DNA of 64,000 nucleotides from Methylobacterium organophilum. GTDB taxonomy: Bacteria; Pseudomonadota; Alphaproteobacteria; Rhizobiales; Beijerinckiaceae. The position numbers and the translations under genes are program-made. Where the stretch lies: contig NZ_BPQV01000015.1 in assembly GCF_022179465.1 (NCBI RefSeq), positions 1-64,000 of the forward strand. The letters are read 5' to 3'. Shown here piece by piece: positions 14,081-21,772 of the stretch (the stretch's first letter is position 1; each line of letters starts with the position of its first letter). The notes below the pieces were generated by a model. The model made no database searches and was not told the origin of the DNA. It saw only the letters and a list, made by a program, of their open reading frames with translations.

Positions 14081-14170
14081 CGGGCGCATTCAGTTTGCGT
14101 TCAACGGAAGGGTCCTGCAATGCCCCCCGCTTCGGCTCTGCCGCCGAACACGTCGAGGGGGAAACGCGCC

Positions 14171-16924
14171 ATGCGCATCATCCTGCGCCCGTTCCTGGCC
14201 CTGCTGGCCGCCCTGGCGCTCGTCCTGCCCACGCTCGCCGGGGCCGCCGCCGCGGGGAGCGAGAAGCGCATCGCCCTCGTCATCGGCAATGCGGAGTACC
14301 AGGCCGGCGCGCTCGCCACCCCCGCCAACGATGCCGGCCTGATCGCGCAGACCTTGCAGGCGGCGGGCTTCGACGTGGTCGGCGCCCGCGACCTCGACGA
14401 GGAATCCCTGCGCCGGGCCCTGCGCGACTTCACCGACAAGGCCGCCGCCTCGGGGCCGGACACGGTCGCCTTCCTCTACCTCTCGGGCTACGGCCTGCAG
14501 CTCTCCGGCGAGAACTACTTCGCCCCGGTCGACGCGCAGATCCCCAGCGCCGCGGACGTGCCCTCGCGGGCCCTGCGCCTCTCGGACTACACGCGGCGCC
14601 TCGCGGCGATCCCGCTCAAGGCCCGGTTCGTGGTGCTCGACGCCGCCCGCACGGCGCCCTTCGCCAAGACCGGCGACCCGCTCGCCGGCGGCCTCTCCCT
14701 GACGGAGGCCGAGCCCGGCGCGCTCATCGCCTTCAACGCCGCCCCGGGCACGGTCGGCCCGCCGGAGAACGGGCCCTACGGCGCCTATGCCCAGGCCCTG
14801 GTCGAGATGATCCGCGAGGGCGGCCTGCAGCCCAACGCCCTGTTCGAGCGGGTGCGCCTGCGGGTGAGCGAGACCACCAAGGGCGCCGAGATGCCCTGGC
14901 ATTCCGCCCGTATCGATGCGCCCTTCGTCTTCCTGGAGCGCGCGCCCGACGCGCCCCCGGTGGCCGAGCCGCAGCAGGTCTCGGCCCTGCGGTCGCGCCC
15001 GATCCGCGAGATCGGCGCCAAGGACGCCTATGCCGTCTGCCTGGAGCGCGACACCCTGGAGGGCTACCAGGATTTCATCGCCGCCTATCCGCACGACGCC
15101 CTGGCCAAGCGCGTGCGCGCCCTCGTGGCCGCACGCCGCGAGGCGGTGACCTGGCGGCGGACCTACGTGGCCGACACGCCGGATGCCTACTGGTCCTATC
15201 TGAGCCGCTATCCCCGCGGGCCGCATGCCTGGGACGCGCGGCGCCGCCTGCGCGAGCTCGCCGTCGCCCTGGAGCCGCCGCCGCGCTTCGCGATGATCGC
15301 CTACGACGTGCCGCCGCCCCCGCCGGAGGAGGTGGTCTATGTCGAGCGCCCGGCGCTCTATCTCGACGATCCGGTCTACGACTTCGCGCCGCCCCCGCCG
15401 CCGCCGGCCGTGTTCCTGCCGCCGCCGCCGGCCTACATCGTCGATCTGGCGCCGCCGCCTCCGCCCGTCGCCTATTATGCCCTGCCGGTGCCCGCCTTCA
15501 CCCCGGTGCCGGACTACGTGAGCGCGCCGGCCTATGTCGCGGCCCCGCCGAACAACGTGATCTACGAGAACATCCACAACACCACGGTCATCAACACGAT
15601 CAACGAACGCAACGCCGAGATCGCCCGCAACCCGGGCTCCGCCGCCGCGATCGGTGCCGGGGCGGTCGCGGGGGCGGCCCTGGGGGCCGCGGCGGCCCGG
15701 GTCGCCCTGCCGCCGGCCGTGGCGCAGAAGGCGGCCCTGCGCGGGCCGATGCCGGCCGGTCCCGGTCAGAACCCGGCCCTGGCGCCCAACCTTGCCCCGA
15801 ATGTCGCCCCCGGCCAGCCGGGGCAGGGCCTGCGCGGTCCGGCCCTGCCCAACGGCCAGCCGATCCCCGCCCAGGCCGAGCGCCCCGGCGCGATGCCCGG
15901 CGCCGTCCCCGGCCAGCCGGGCGCCGTGCCGCCGGGCCAGAACCCCGCCGCGCAGAATCCTGGCCTGCGTCCGGCCATCGGCCAGCCGTTGCCGGGCACG
16001 AACGGGCAGCCCCTGCCCGGCCAGCCCAACCCGGCGGATCCGCGGGCGGCCAACGCGCCCGGAAGGGCCCTGCCGGGCATGAACGGCCAGCCGCTTCCGG
16101 CTCAGGCGGGTCGCCCCGGTGTCGCGCCCGGCCCGAACCCGGCGGGCGCCCCGCAGCAGGCCGGCCTGCCGAACGCCGCCGAGAGGGCCGCCCCCGCCCC
16201 CGGCCGGCCCCTGCCCGGCGCGAACGGTCAGCCGCTCCCGGCCCAGGCCGGGCCGGGCCGCGGGCCGCAGCCGGCCGAGCGGCCTTCGGCGCCCCCCGCC
16301 GTGGCGGGCCGCCCCGCTTTGCCGCCCGGCCCGAACCCGGCCGCCGGGCGCGAGGCCCCGCAGCAGGCGCTCCAGGCGCAGAGGGCCCAGCAGGCCGAGG
16401 CCGCCGCCCAGCGGGCGCAGGCGGCGCAGCAGCAGGCCGCCCAACGGCAGCAGCAGATGCAGGCCCAGCGCCAGGCGCAGCAGGCCCAGGCCGCGCAGCG
16501 CCAGCAGGCCCAAGCCGCGCAGCGTCAGCAGATGCAGCAGCAACAGGCGGCCCAGCGGGCGCAGCAGATGCAGGCGCAGCGTCAGGCCCAGCAGGCCCAG
16601 GCCGCGGCGCAGCGCCAGCAGGCCCAAGCCGCGCAGCGTCAGCAGATGCAGCAGCAACAGGCGGCCCAGCGGGCGCAGCAGATGCAGGCGCAGCGTCAGG
16701 CCCAGCAGGCCCAGGCCGCAGCGCAGCGCCAGCAGGCTCAAGCCGCCCAGCGCCAGCAGATGATGCAGGCCCAGGCGGCTCAGCGGGCGCAGCAGATGCA
16801 GGCGCAGCAGGCCCAGGCCGCCGCCATGCGGCAGCAGCAGATGATGCAGGCGCGCCAGGCCCCGCCGCCGCGGGCTGCCCCGGCCCCCCATGGCGGCTGC
16901 CATCCGGGCCAGCCCTGCCGCTGA
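14171..16924 (+). CDS. Exported caspase-fold pseudoenzyme with Pro-rich and Gln-rich repeat tail
   Basis: 917 residues. After a signal peptide (RPFLALLAALALVLPTLAGAAAA) comes a peptidase C14 (caspase/metacaspase) domain, about residues 32-260, recognised by RIALVIGNAEY, ANDAGLIAQTL and ENYFAPVDA. Both catalytic residues are gone: the usual SGHG is SGYG (Tyr107) and the usual DACR is DAAR (Ala159). A middle part (about 280-385) has YPHDALAKR- and YWSYLSRYPRG-type segments often seen behind such domains. Then come proline stretches with repeated VYV/YDFA motifs, a Gly/Ala TM-like stretch (IGAGAVAGAALGAAAA), Pro/Gly/Asn repeats and a Gln/Ala/Met tail. GAGGGGGAAA precedes the ATG at 14171; an upstream in-frame ATG at 14120 would spoil the signal peptide. 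Confidence 0.85.
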   Translation: MRIILRPFLALLAALALVLPTLAGAAAAGSEKRIALVIGNAEYQAGALATPANDAGLIAQTLQAAGFDVVGARDLDEESLRRALRDFTDKAAASGPDTVAFLYLSGYGLQLSGENYFAPVDAQIPSAADVPSRALRLSDYTRRLAAIPLKARFVVLDAARTAPFAKTGDPLAGGLSLTEAEPGALIAFNAAPGTVGPPENGPYGAYAQALVEMIREGGLQPNALFERVRLRVSETTKGAEMPWHSARIDAPFVFLERAPDAPPVAEPQQVSALRSRPIREIGAKDAYAVCLERDTLEGYQDFIAAYPHDALAKRVRALVAARREAVTWRRTYVADTPDAYWSYLSRYPRGPHAWDARRRLRELAVALEPPPRFAMIAYDVPPPPPEEVVYVERPALYLDDPVYDFAPPPPPPAVFLPPPPAYIVDLAPPPPPVAYYALPVPAFTPVPDYVSAPAYVAAPPNNVIYENIHNTTVINTINERNAEIARNPGSAAAIGAGAVAGAALGAAAARVALPPAVAQKAALRGPMPAGPGQNPALAPNLAPNVAPGQPGQGLRGPALPNGQPIPAQAERPGAMPGAVPGQPGAVPPGQNPAAQNPGLRPAIGQPLPGTNGQPLPGQPNPADPRAANAPGRALPGMNGQPLPAQAGRPGVAPGPNPAGAPQQAGLPNAAERAAPAPGRPLPGANGQPLPAQAGPGRGPQPAERPSAPPAVAGRPALPPGPNPAAGREAPQQALQAQRAQQAEAAAQRAQAAQQQAAQRQQQMQAQRQAQQAQAAQRQQAQAAQRQQMQQQQAAQRAQQMQAQRQAQQAQAAAQRQQAQAAQRQQMQQQQAAQRAQQMQAQRQAQQAQAAAQRQQAQAAQRQQMMQAQAAQRAQQMQAQQAQAAAMRQQQMMQARQAPPPRAAPAPHGGCHPGQPCR
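16511..16738 (+). repeat. Two near-identical 114-bp tandem repeats inside the coding region
   Basis: Units 16511-16624 and 16625-16738 differ at only about two bases by eye; a decayed third copy begins at 16739 and a decayed partial copy precedes 16511. The unit is 38 codons, so changes in copy number keep the frame. It encodes Gln/Ala/Met-rich sequence of the caspase-fold protein tail. Confidence 0.85.
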
Positions 16925-20073: not shown

Positions 20074-21204
20074 ATGACGGGGAAACGGGACAACGATTCC
20101 GATGAGAACAAGGTCGACGCCGTACCGCCTTCGGCACCGGTGAGCCTCGGCGCCTTCGCGGCGGCCTTCGAGGCCAGCCCGACGCCCATGGTCGTGACCG
20201 ACCCGCGCCAGGCCGACAACCCCATCGTCTGGGCCAACGAAGCCTTTCTGACGCTCACCGGCTACGGCCGGGCCGAACTCTACGGCCGCAATTGCCGCGT
20301 CCTGCAAGGGCCGGATTCCGACCCGGCGGTGATCGCGGCCATGCGCGCGGCGGTGGCGGAGGAGAAATCCGTCGAGTGCGAGCTCTTCAACGTGCGCAAG
20401 GACGGCTCCCGCTTCTGGAACGGGATGACGATCAGCCCCGTGCGCGACCCCGACGGCGCGGTCCGCTACTTCTTCTCGGCCCAGGCCGACATGACCGACA
20501 AGCACCGCCTGGAGGAGGCGCTGAAGCGGGCGAACGACGAGCTGGAGCGGCAGGTGGCCGAGCGCACCGCCGCCCTGCAAGCGGCCCTGGAGCAGAAGAC
20601 GGCTCTGCTCCACGAGGTCGACCACCGGGTCAAGAACAACCTCCAGGTCATCTCCTCGCTGATGCTCCTGAAGGCCCGGCGCACGCCGGAGGGCGAGGCC
20701 CGGGAGGCCCTGCAGGCCATGGCCGAGCGCATCGGCGCCCTCTCGACCGCCCACCGGATGCTCTACTCCGCCGGCAACGTCTCCCGCTTCGACTTCCAGG
20801 AATTCACCGCGGAGTTCCTCTCCGACGTCGCCGCCGGGCTCGATCCGGAGCGGACCACGATCCGGTCGGAGATCGAGCCCGTCGGCACCACCGCCGCCAT
20901 GGCCGCCCCGCTCGCCCTGATGCTGCACGAATTGACCGCCAACGCCCTGCGCCACGCCTTCCCGGGCGACCGCGAGGGCCTGGTCAGCATCCGGGCGCGG
21001 CAGGGGGCGGAGGGGATGCAGCTCGTGGTCGAGGATGACGGCGTCGGGCTGGCGCAGGCGCCCGCCAATCCGGCCGGCTTCGGCCGCAACCTCGTCGAGA
21101 TGGTGGTGCGCCAGCTGCGCGGGAACGTGCTCTGGAGCGATGCCGCGCCAGGAACACGTGTAGAAATCACGATTCCGATGAATGCCCGGGATGGCCTGAA
21201 CTGA
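20074..21204 (+). CDS. LOV-domain blue-light sensor histidine kinase (HisKA_2)
   Basis: 376 residues, soluble. The LOV (PAS) domain spans about 30-140 and contains the flavin-adduct cysteine Cys74 in GRNCRVLQG, WANEAFLTLTGY, VRKDGSRFWN and the conserved Gln of FFSAQADMTD, so a photoactive flavin domain is expected. A coiled-coil (about 145-175) links it to a HisKA_2 kinase with phosphoacceptor His184 in HEVDHRVKNNLQV and an ATPase part containing HELTANALRHAF. The next gene is a single-domain response regulator, likely its partner. No good Shine-Dalgarno is seen before the ATG. The family includes LovK-type kinases that feed the general stress response. Confidence 0.9.
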   Translation: MTGKRDNDSDENKVDAVPPSAPVSLGAFAAAFEASPTPMVVTDPRQADNPIVWANEAFLTLTGYGRAELYGRNCRVLQGPDSDPAVIAAMRAAVAEEKSVECELFNVRKDGSRFWNGMTISPVRDPDGAVRYFFSAQADMTDKHRLEEALKRANDELERQVAERTAALQAALEQKTALLHEVDHRVKNNLQVISSLMLLKARRTPEGEAREALQAMAERIGALSTAHRMLYSAGNVSRFDFQEFTAEFLSDVAAGLDPERTTIRSEIEPVGTTAAMAAPLALMLHELTANALRHAFPGDREGLVSIRARQGAEGMQLVVEDDGVGLAQAPANPAGFGRNLVEMVVRQLRGNVLWSDAAPGTRVEITIPMNARDGLN

Positions 21205-21292: not shown

Positions 21293-21772
21293 ATGTCCCA
21301 GGAGACGTCCGGATCCGGCCTGCGGATTCTCGTCGTCGAGGACGAGGCCCTGATCGCGCTCGAACTGGAAAGCCTTCTCGAAGATCTCGGGCACATCCCG
21401 GTCGGCGTGGCCACGAATTCGCAAGAAGCCATCGCGCTCGGCCGCGACACGACACCCGATCTCGCCCTGGTCGACATTCATCTCGTCGACGGCCCGACCG
21501 GGGTGGAGGTGGCCCGCGCCCTGAGCGCCGACCCGCGCATCCTGGTGCTGTTCATGACCGCCAATGCCAAGCGCATCCCGGACGACTTCGCCGGCGCCCT
21601 CGGCGTGATCCCGAAGCCCTATTCCGAGCGCTGCGTGGCGAGCGCGCTGGCCTATGTCGCCGCGTGCCGGGCCGGCGCCACGCCCTCCCGGGACACCATC
21701 GACGGCTTCAGCCTCGCGCCGCTCGCCGCCGAGGCCTGCGGCCGGGCCGCCTGGGGCGAGCCGCGCCACTGA
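21293..21772 (+). CDS. Single-domain response regulator
   Basis: 159 residues comprising one receiver domain (about 10-128): RILVVEDEALIALELE with the acidic pocket, phosphoacceptor Asp61 in DLALVDIHL, and Lys in VIPKPYSE. The C-terminal 30 residues have no output domain. It follows the LOV kinase by 88 bases and has GGAGGAAA before the ATG. As in other kinase/single-receiver pairs (LovK-LovR), it probably acts as a phosphate sink or phosphotransfer protein for the LOV kinase; that role is inferred. Confidence 0.88.
   Translation: MSQETSGSGLRILVVEDEALIALELESLLEDLGHIPVGVATNSQEAIALGRDTTPDLALVDIHLVDGPTGVEVARALSADPRILVLFMTANAKRIPDDFAGALGVIPKPYSERCVASALAYVAACRAGATPSRDTIDGFSLAPLAAEACGRAAWGEPRH

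Follow-up and report, generated by a model that had tools for sequence, protein, structure and literature searches.

Inactive relatives of the orthocaspases have been described before. In the accessible part of a 2019 survey (PMC6426788), Tyr-Ala pseudo-orthocaspases of Rhizobiales are catalogued as proteins with long C-termini in which no domain could be identified, and scaffolding is put forward in the discussion as a role that inactive proteases take on more generally. That text also states that, in Alphaproteobacteria, only photosynthetic organisms carry pseudo-variants. A further survey, also available in part, reports an intact dyad in 75% of alphaproteobacterial caspase homologues (PMC3501461). 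Another bacterial p20 pseudo-protease, the cyanobacterial pseudo-orthocaspase SyOC of Synechocystis, can be likened to these proteins by description only; the available part of that report states that its deletion leads to higher oxidative-stress tolerance (PMC7889975).

Here, we examined a gene in a 64,000 nt stretch of Methylobacterium organophilum (NZ_BPQV01000015.1, positions 1 to 64,000), referred to below as the window. The gene, at 14171–16924 (+), is open throughout and would encode an exported pseudo-orthocaspase of 917 aa. Purine-rich GAGGGGGAAA lies upstream of its ATG at 14171, and a second in-frame ATG is found at 14120. The sole Pfam match in the protein is PF00656 (Peptidase_C14), which covers a p20 domain at aa 32–250 (14264–14920, +) with an E value of 1.4e-33 and passes the curated cut-off (116.9 versus 21.4 bits); pseudo-orthocaspases are not expected to have a p10 domain, and this Pfam search gave no second match. 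The N-terminal 28 aa (14171–14254, +) resemble a Sec-type signal peptide when read by eye, with a hydropathy maximum of 3.08 over 12 aa. As Cys is found only at positions 290, 910 and 916, the N-terminus contains no lipobox. Of 71 class members that could be assessed, 69 have a hydrophobic N-terminal stretch, and so, as often, do 37 of 40 relatives that retain the His-Cys dyad; export therefore does not set the class apart. An open frame of 937 aa runs antisense to the gene (14090–16903, –), and clustering of ORFs from 28 loci gave antisense frames like it; GC-rich codon use is the most likely reason for its being open.

The original prediction, of a C14-type protein with Tyr in place of the catalytic His and Ala in place of the catalytic Cys, was confirmed. 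Alignment with orthologues and with MALT1 places Tyr107 (14489–14491, +; motif SGYG) at the His position and Ala159 (14645–14647, +; motif LDAAR) at the Cys position, and the His-Cys dyad of active orthocaspases is therefore absent. When a profile of 38 class members was compared with solved structures, ten distinct MALT1 paracaspase sequences were returned (best E value 2.5e-10, profile positions 6–138), making MALT1 the closest solved relative. MALT1 is an animal signalling protease with a His-Cys dyad. MALT1 has the His of its YYAGHG motif in the profile column of Tyr107 and the Cys of its LLDMCR motif in that of Ala159, and we take these to be its catalytic residues. With a p20 domain present and the dyad substituted, the protein is a pseudo-orthocaspase. 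Tyr for His, Ala for Cys and a long C-terminus with no Pfam match are also what the accessible text of PMC6426788 gives for the Tyr-Ala and Tyr-Ser pseudo-orthocaspases of Rhizobiales. The suggestion that such a protein is new in kind is not supported. It belongs to a published class as a new member, and a repeat module, a terminal Cys pair, the lack of a positive link to photosynthesis and independence from other C14 genes add to what the accessible text says of that class.

We read 29 orthologues from elsewhere in the genus, not counting two further rows that represent the window itself: position 107 is Tyr in 28 and Ser in one, and position 159 is Ala in 25, Gly in three and Ser in one. None has His or Cys at the respective position, and the loss is common to these orthologues. 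Across 66 class rows, the Cys site is occupied by Ala (54), Ser (8) or Gly (4), and the His site varies (Y, L, H, Q, E, V, I or S). The two catalytic columns were removed before an 83-row tree was built; in it, a single branch (100/99) separates all 66 rows without Cys from the others, and the Cys site changes once and the His site four times. Left out of the tree were L004 and L084–L089 (the window itself and duplicate loci) and L090 and L091 (interrupted copies). The rows were picked by similarity to the window protein, and the Phe-Ser and Gln-Cys pseudo-variants fall outside the sample; by this tree the loss of Cys is old and a single event, a count valid for the sampled rows only. His is retained in three of the non-Cys rows (L049, L051 and L070), which fits an order of events in which Cys was lost first and His drifted afterwards, though the details are unsure, as the tree program gave a warning about long branches that join. 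Beyond the order, we read 24 loci drawn from 385 sampled genomes of the taxonomic class; the dyad is His-Cys in 23 of them and His-Ala in the remaining one, L097.

Orthologues across the order, at 59–82% identity, share the loss. A simple Nei-Gojobori count on 15 chosen close pairs gave omega values of 0.05–0.21 for the p20 domain, indicating purifying selection, and of 0.00–0.16 for the repeat module described below. For the tail, omega was 0.10–0.38 in the 14 alignable pairs, a rough figure from low-complexity alignments.

Two acidic residues that may belong to the S1 pocket have been kept. Asp54 (14330–14332, +) is conserved in 62 of 66 class rows and Asp157 (14639–14641, +) in all 66, and both are present in 17/17 His-Cys rows; each also aligns with an Asp of MALT1. 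The available text of PMC6426788 points to two Asp residues of trypanosome metacaspase 2 as important for fitting basic residues into the pocket, and reports that pseudo-orthocaspases conserve them. From the motif positions and the MALT1 alignment, we read Asp54 and Asp157 as probable counterparts of those two residues, though the retained acids may serve folding rather than binding. Elsewhere in the p20 domain, 37 positions, including Asn189, Tyr203 and Tyr206, reach a conservation of 85% or more across the 66 class rows but not in the 17 His-Cys rows, and 24 are conserved in the His-Cys rows only. The class-specific positions are suggestive only, and may partly reflect closer kinship among the class rows.

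The original prediction of a secreted-looking pseudo-caspase is supported, the N-terminus being signal-peptide-like, but its account of the part past p20 is to be refined: a strongly conserved repeat module and the terminal Cys pair had been missed. The module (aa ~278–372; 15002–15286, +) consists of ~95 residues in two similar halves, whose mutual score exceeded those of all 500 shuffles. Mean column identity over it is 67% in an alignment of 31 sequences, and of the 30 invariant columns in the 38-member class alignment, 14 fall within it, all inside 57 residues. Its best solved relative is CpoB (E value 0.0033 for the whole chain), a weak match made up of two stretches that are each poor alone, and YfiO matches were found in 5 of the 31 members (best E value 1e-4). 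Pfam and profile searches returned no TPR or YfiO match in the window protein itself, and only weak ones in a few relatives. We therefore describe the module as TPR-like rather than as TPR; its resemblance to the envelope TPR proteins CpoB and YfiO (BamD) is a weak similarity from which homology does not follow. For the Tyr-Ala type, the accessible part of the survey gives no domain in the C-terminus, and TPR repeats are given there for the Phe-Ser type (PMC6426788), whereas a TPR-like module is found here in a Tyr-Ala protein.

The C-terminus of the 917 aa protein gave no Pfam match at E values up to 1, and the whole protein gave no NCBIfam match, in keeping with the prolonged C-terminus without identifiable domain of the Rhizobiales Tyr-Ala type. 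The module is followed by a conserved Pro-rich segment that ends in NIHNTTVIN (aa 373–475; 15287–15595, +) and by a Gly/Ala zipper-like hydrophobic stretch (aa 491–509; 15641–15697, +), which has the highest 19-aa hydropathy past aa 260 (1.71). A counterpart of this stretch (at least 1.4 over 17 aa) is present in 41 of 66 class members and absent from 25. The low-complexity tail (15698–16897, +) is Pro/Gly-rich and then Gln/Ala/Arg-rich, and contains 3.4 copies of a 114 bp (38 aa) tandem unit at 16426–16808.

The protein ends in CHPGQPCR, with Cys910 and Cys916 forming a terminal pair (16898–16924, +, including the stop codon) that is conserved in the class. Two Cys are found in the last 16 aa of 42 of 56 complete class ORFs, the window included, and 14 of the 56 lack them; elsewhere in the tails of these ORFs there are just 2 Cys in 19,930 residues. 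In a largely overlapping set, the pair is present in 48 of 62 class ORFs versus 2 of the 39 relatives with His-Cys. This gene is the only one in the M. organophilum assembly to end in the exact form CxPGxPC(R)-stop. Such a pair suggests a disulfide, inside one molecule or between molecules. In the literature searched, which covered part of PMC6426788, we found no description of the Cys pair or of the repeat module.

Among 112 genomes of the genus, at least 65 have some match to a query made of the p20 domain plus the repeats, and 40 have a strong orthologue (over 500 bits); one genome (G024) has a partial match of 79% identity at a contig edge. Interrupted copies were observed in two species of the genus (L090 in G064 and L091 in G054). 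With a strong orthologue in only 40 of 112 species and two interrupted copies, the function seems dispensable there, and the gene itself appears dispensable in the species with interrupted copies. At least 168 genomes in an order sample of 397 have a match at an E value of 1e-20, and 34 have an orthologue of at least 440 bits; up to 18 candidates per genome were scored in the genus search and up to five in those of the order and the taxonomic class. Loci were fetched and read for 33 genomes outside the genus with the Cys loss, as well as for further His-Cys relatives.

Reaction-centre genes (PF00124) are present in the M. organophilum genome and in 108 of the 112 genus genomes. Three of the four genus genomes without them (G016, G018 and G030) carry an orthologue (Fisher p 0.13); the fourth (G079), which has no strong orthologue, is 70% complete. 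In the order sample, PF00124 was found in 6 of the 34 orthologue-bearing genomes, five of them in Methylobacterium, and 28 lack it. Outside the genus, it was found in 1 of 28 genomes with an orthologue versus 67 of 360 without (Fisher p 0.04, in the negative direction and uncorrected for relatedness), and in 3 of the 33 genomes in which the Cys loss was read in the sequence. Neither the genus nor the order sample shows a restriction to photosynthetic organisms or a positive link to reaction-centre genes. The tie between pseudo-variants and photosynthesis stated in the available part of PMC6426788 is thus contradicted: in the genomes sampled here, the class does not follow it.

No PF00656 match other than the orthologue (E value 0.001) was found in 11 of the 40 strong-orthologue genomes of the genus, one of which (G078) is 85% complete. 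These 11 genomes have no active C14 partner unless one was missed by the profile or the assembly. The M. organophilum genome has one other C14 gene (L003, 5107–7920, –, contig C11), with a His-Cys dyad; its product is 34% identical to the window protein over the p20 region and has no hydrophobic N-terminal stretch. The L003 protein also has a thioredoxin-type C-terminal domain (PF13462, aa 766–930, E value 3.1e-17) with a CPAC motif, and a frame as long as this gene is also present in G038. Fusion of a caspase domain to a thioredoxin-type domain is, to our knowledge, unusual.

No gene neighbour conserved across families was found when 12 window genes were searched by tblastn against 28 loci, with the glycosyltransferase and methyltransferase queries partly out of frame and their matches thus lower bounds, or when ORFs from the 28 loci and the window were clustered. 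L084 and L086, from the same genus, share genes for topoisomerase IB, a glycosyltransferase and a methyltransferase with the window. Neighbours are also shared within one family of two genera, f36 (L034, L036, L039, L040 and L047), and in all of these but L036 the genes that follow look like rpsB-tsf-pyrH-frr. Downstream of the window gene, a PAS/LOV-like sensor kinase (20074–21204, +) and then a receiver-like protein (21293–21772, +) were recognized by eye.

Relatives at an E value of 1e-30 (50–71% identity) were found in 11 plasmid records, seven from Rhizobium, two from Chelatococcus and one each from Methylocapsa and Phyllobacterium. The six examined are all from Hyphomicrobiales; five have Tyr-Ala, and the one from Chelatococcus daeguensis has Gln-Ala. 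Five are annotated as caspase family or caspase-domain proteins, and no gene is listed at the site in Phyllobacterium. In all three Rhizobium plasmid loci L124, L125 and L126, the next gene downstream, less than 100 bases away, is annotated as MipA/OmpV, and L125 also has curlin and csgH genes upstream on the opposite strand. A MipA/OmpV gene was not matched at an E value of 0.001 in the window or in the other fetched loci, many of which are only ~4 kb. The MipA/OmpV product is a possible envelope partner in Rhizobium.

We put at about an even chance that this exported member of the orthocaspases serves the cell envelope as a periplasmic binding scaffold without catalytic activity. After Sec secretion into the periplasm, the acidic pocket of the p20 domain would hold Arg- or Lys-bearing peptide segments without cutting them, the TPR-like module would dock a second partner, and the flexible Pro/Gln tail, the Gly zipper and a disulfide of the terminal Cys would space or tether the protein in the envelope. 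Pointing to such a scaffold are the absent dyad, the old loss of Cys, the low omega values and the retention of Asp54 and Asp157, together with the signal-peptide-like stretch, the resemblance of the module to envelope TPR proteins and the terminal Cys pair, and the 11 of 40 genomes in which no other C14 match was found indicate that it would need no active partner. Counting against it are the weakness of the TPR-like similarity, the possibility that the pocket acids serve folding, the equally frequent signal-peptide-like stretches of His-Cys relatives, the lack of a neighbour conserved across families, the patchy occurrence of strong orthologues in the genus, and the 14 of 56 ORFs without the Cys pair and 25 of 66 class members without the zipper-like stretch. 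A more specific proposal seems doubtful to us: a periplasmic reader of Arg/Lys peptides that arose by one old loss of the nucleophile and whose kept S1 pocket would bind but not cut, with copies chained or tethered by the Cys pair and acting independently of photosynthesis and of active caspases. Its pocket might perhaps bind the Arg-containing Gln/Ala tail of a neighbouring copy.

Catalysis of another kind, in which other residues of the caspase fold would carry out some different hydrolysis or transfer reaction, could account for the 37 p20 positions conserved only in the class, if these do not partly reflect kinship. The His and Cys sites are variable, however, and the old site shows no evident new set of catalytic residues; we consider such a cryptic enzyme unlikely. 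The protein could also act on an active caspase-like protease as a decoy or regulator, in the way that FLIP(L) acts on caspase-8. The accessible text of PMC6426788 records this mode for other pseudo-caspases, and the L003 protein would offer a His-Cys partner in the same genome. That partner is distant and lacks the N-terminal hydrophobic stretch, so that the two may reside in different compartments, and as 11 of the 40 strong-orthologue genomes have no other PF00656 match, a partner is not obligate. This makes regulation of an active relative rather improbable.

A role in photosynthesis, as proposed in the available part of PMC6426788, has in its favour the reaction-centre genes of M. organophilum itself and the restriction to photosynthetic organisms published there, but the general rule is contradicted by the 28 of 34 orthologue-bearing genomes of the order that lack PF00124, and we regard this role as highly improbable, though it may exist in particular phototrophic lineages. 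A sequencing error, a recent loss or a decaying gene would be in line with the interrupted copies in two genomes of the genus. These explanations, the first two of which had been put forward as ways in which the prediction might fail, are refuted by orthologues as distant as 59–82% identity that share the substitutions, by omega values far below 1 and by the one old Cys loss on the tree, and their likelihood is negligible.

Four of the six plasmid relatives examined are publicly annotated as proteolysis proteins, which their sequence contradicts. As an old, secreted-looking class that is under selection and whose members are the only C14 genes found in 11 of 40 orthologue-bearing genomes of the genus, these proteins are a clear example of a caspase fold retained for a purpose other than cleavage. 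Photosynthesis, the sole role proposed for the class in the accessible part of PMC6426788, finds no support in the genome samples, which argue against it. If the protein does act as a reader or scaffold, it would represent a scaffold of the cell envelope that is unrelated to photosynthesis and has no need of an active caspase.
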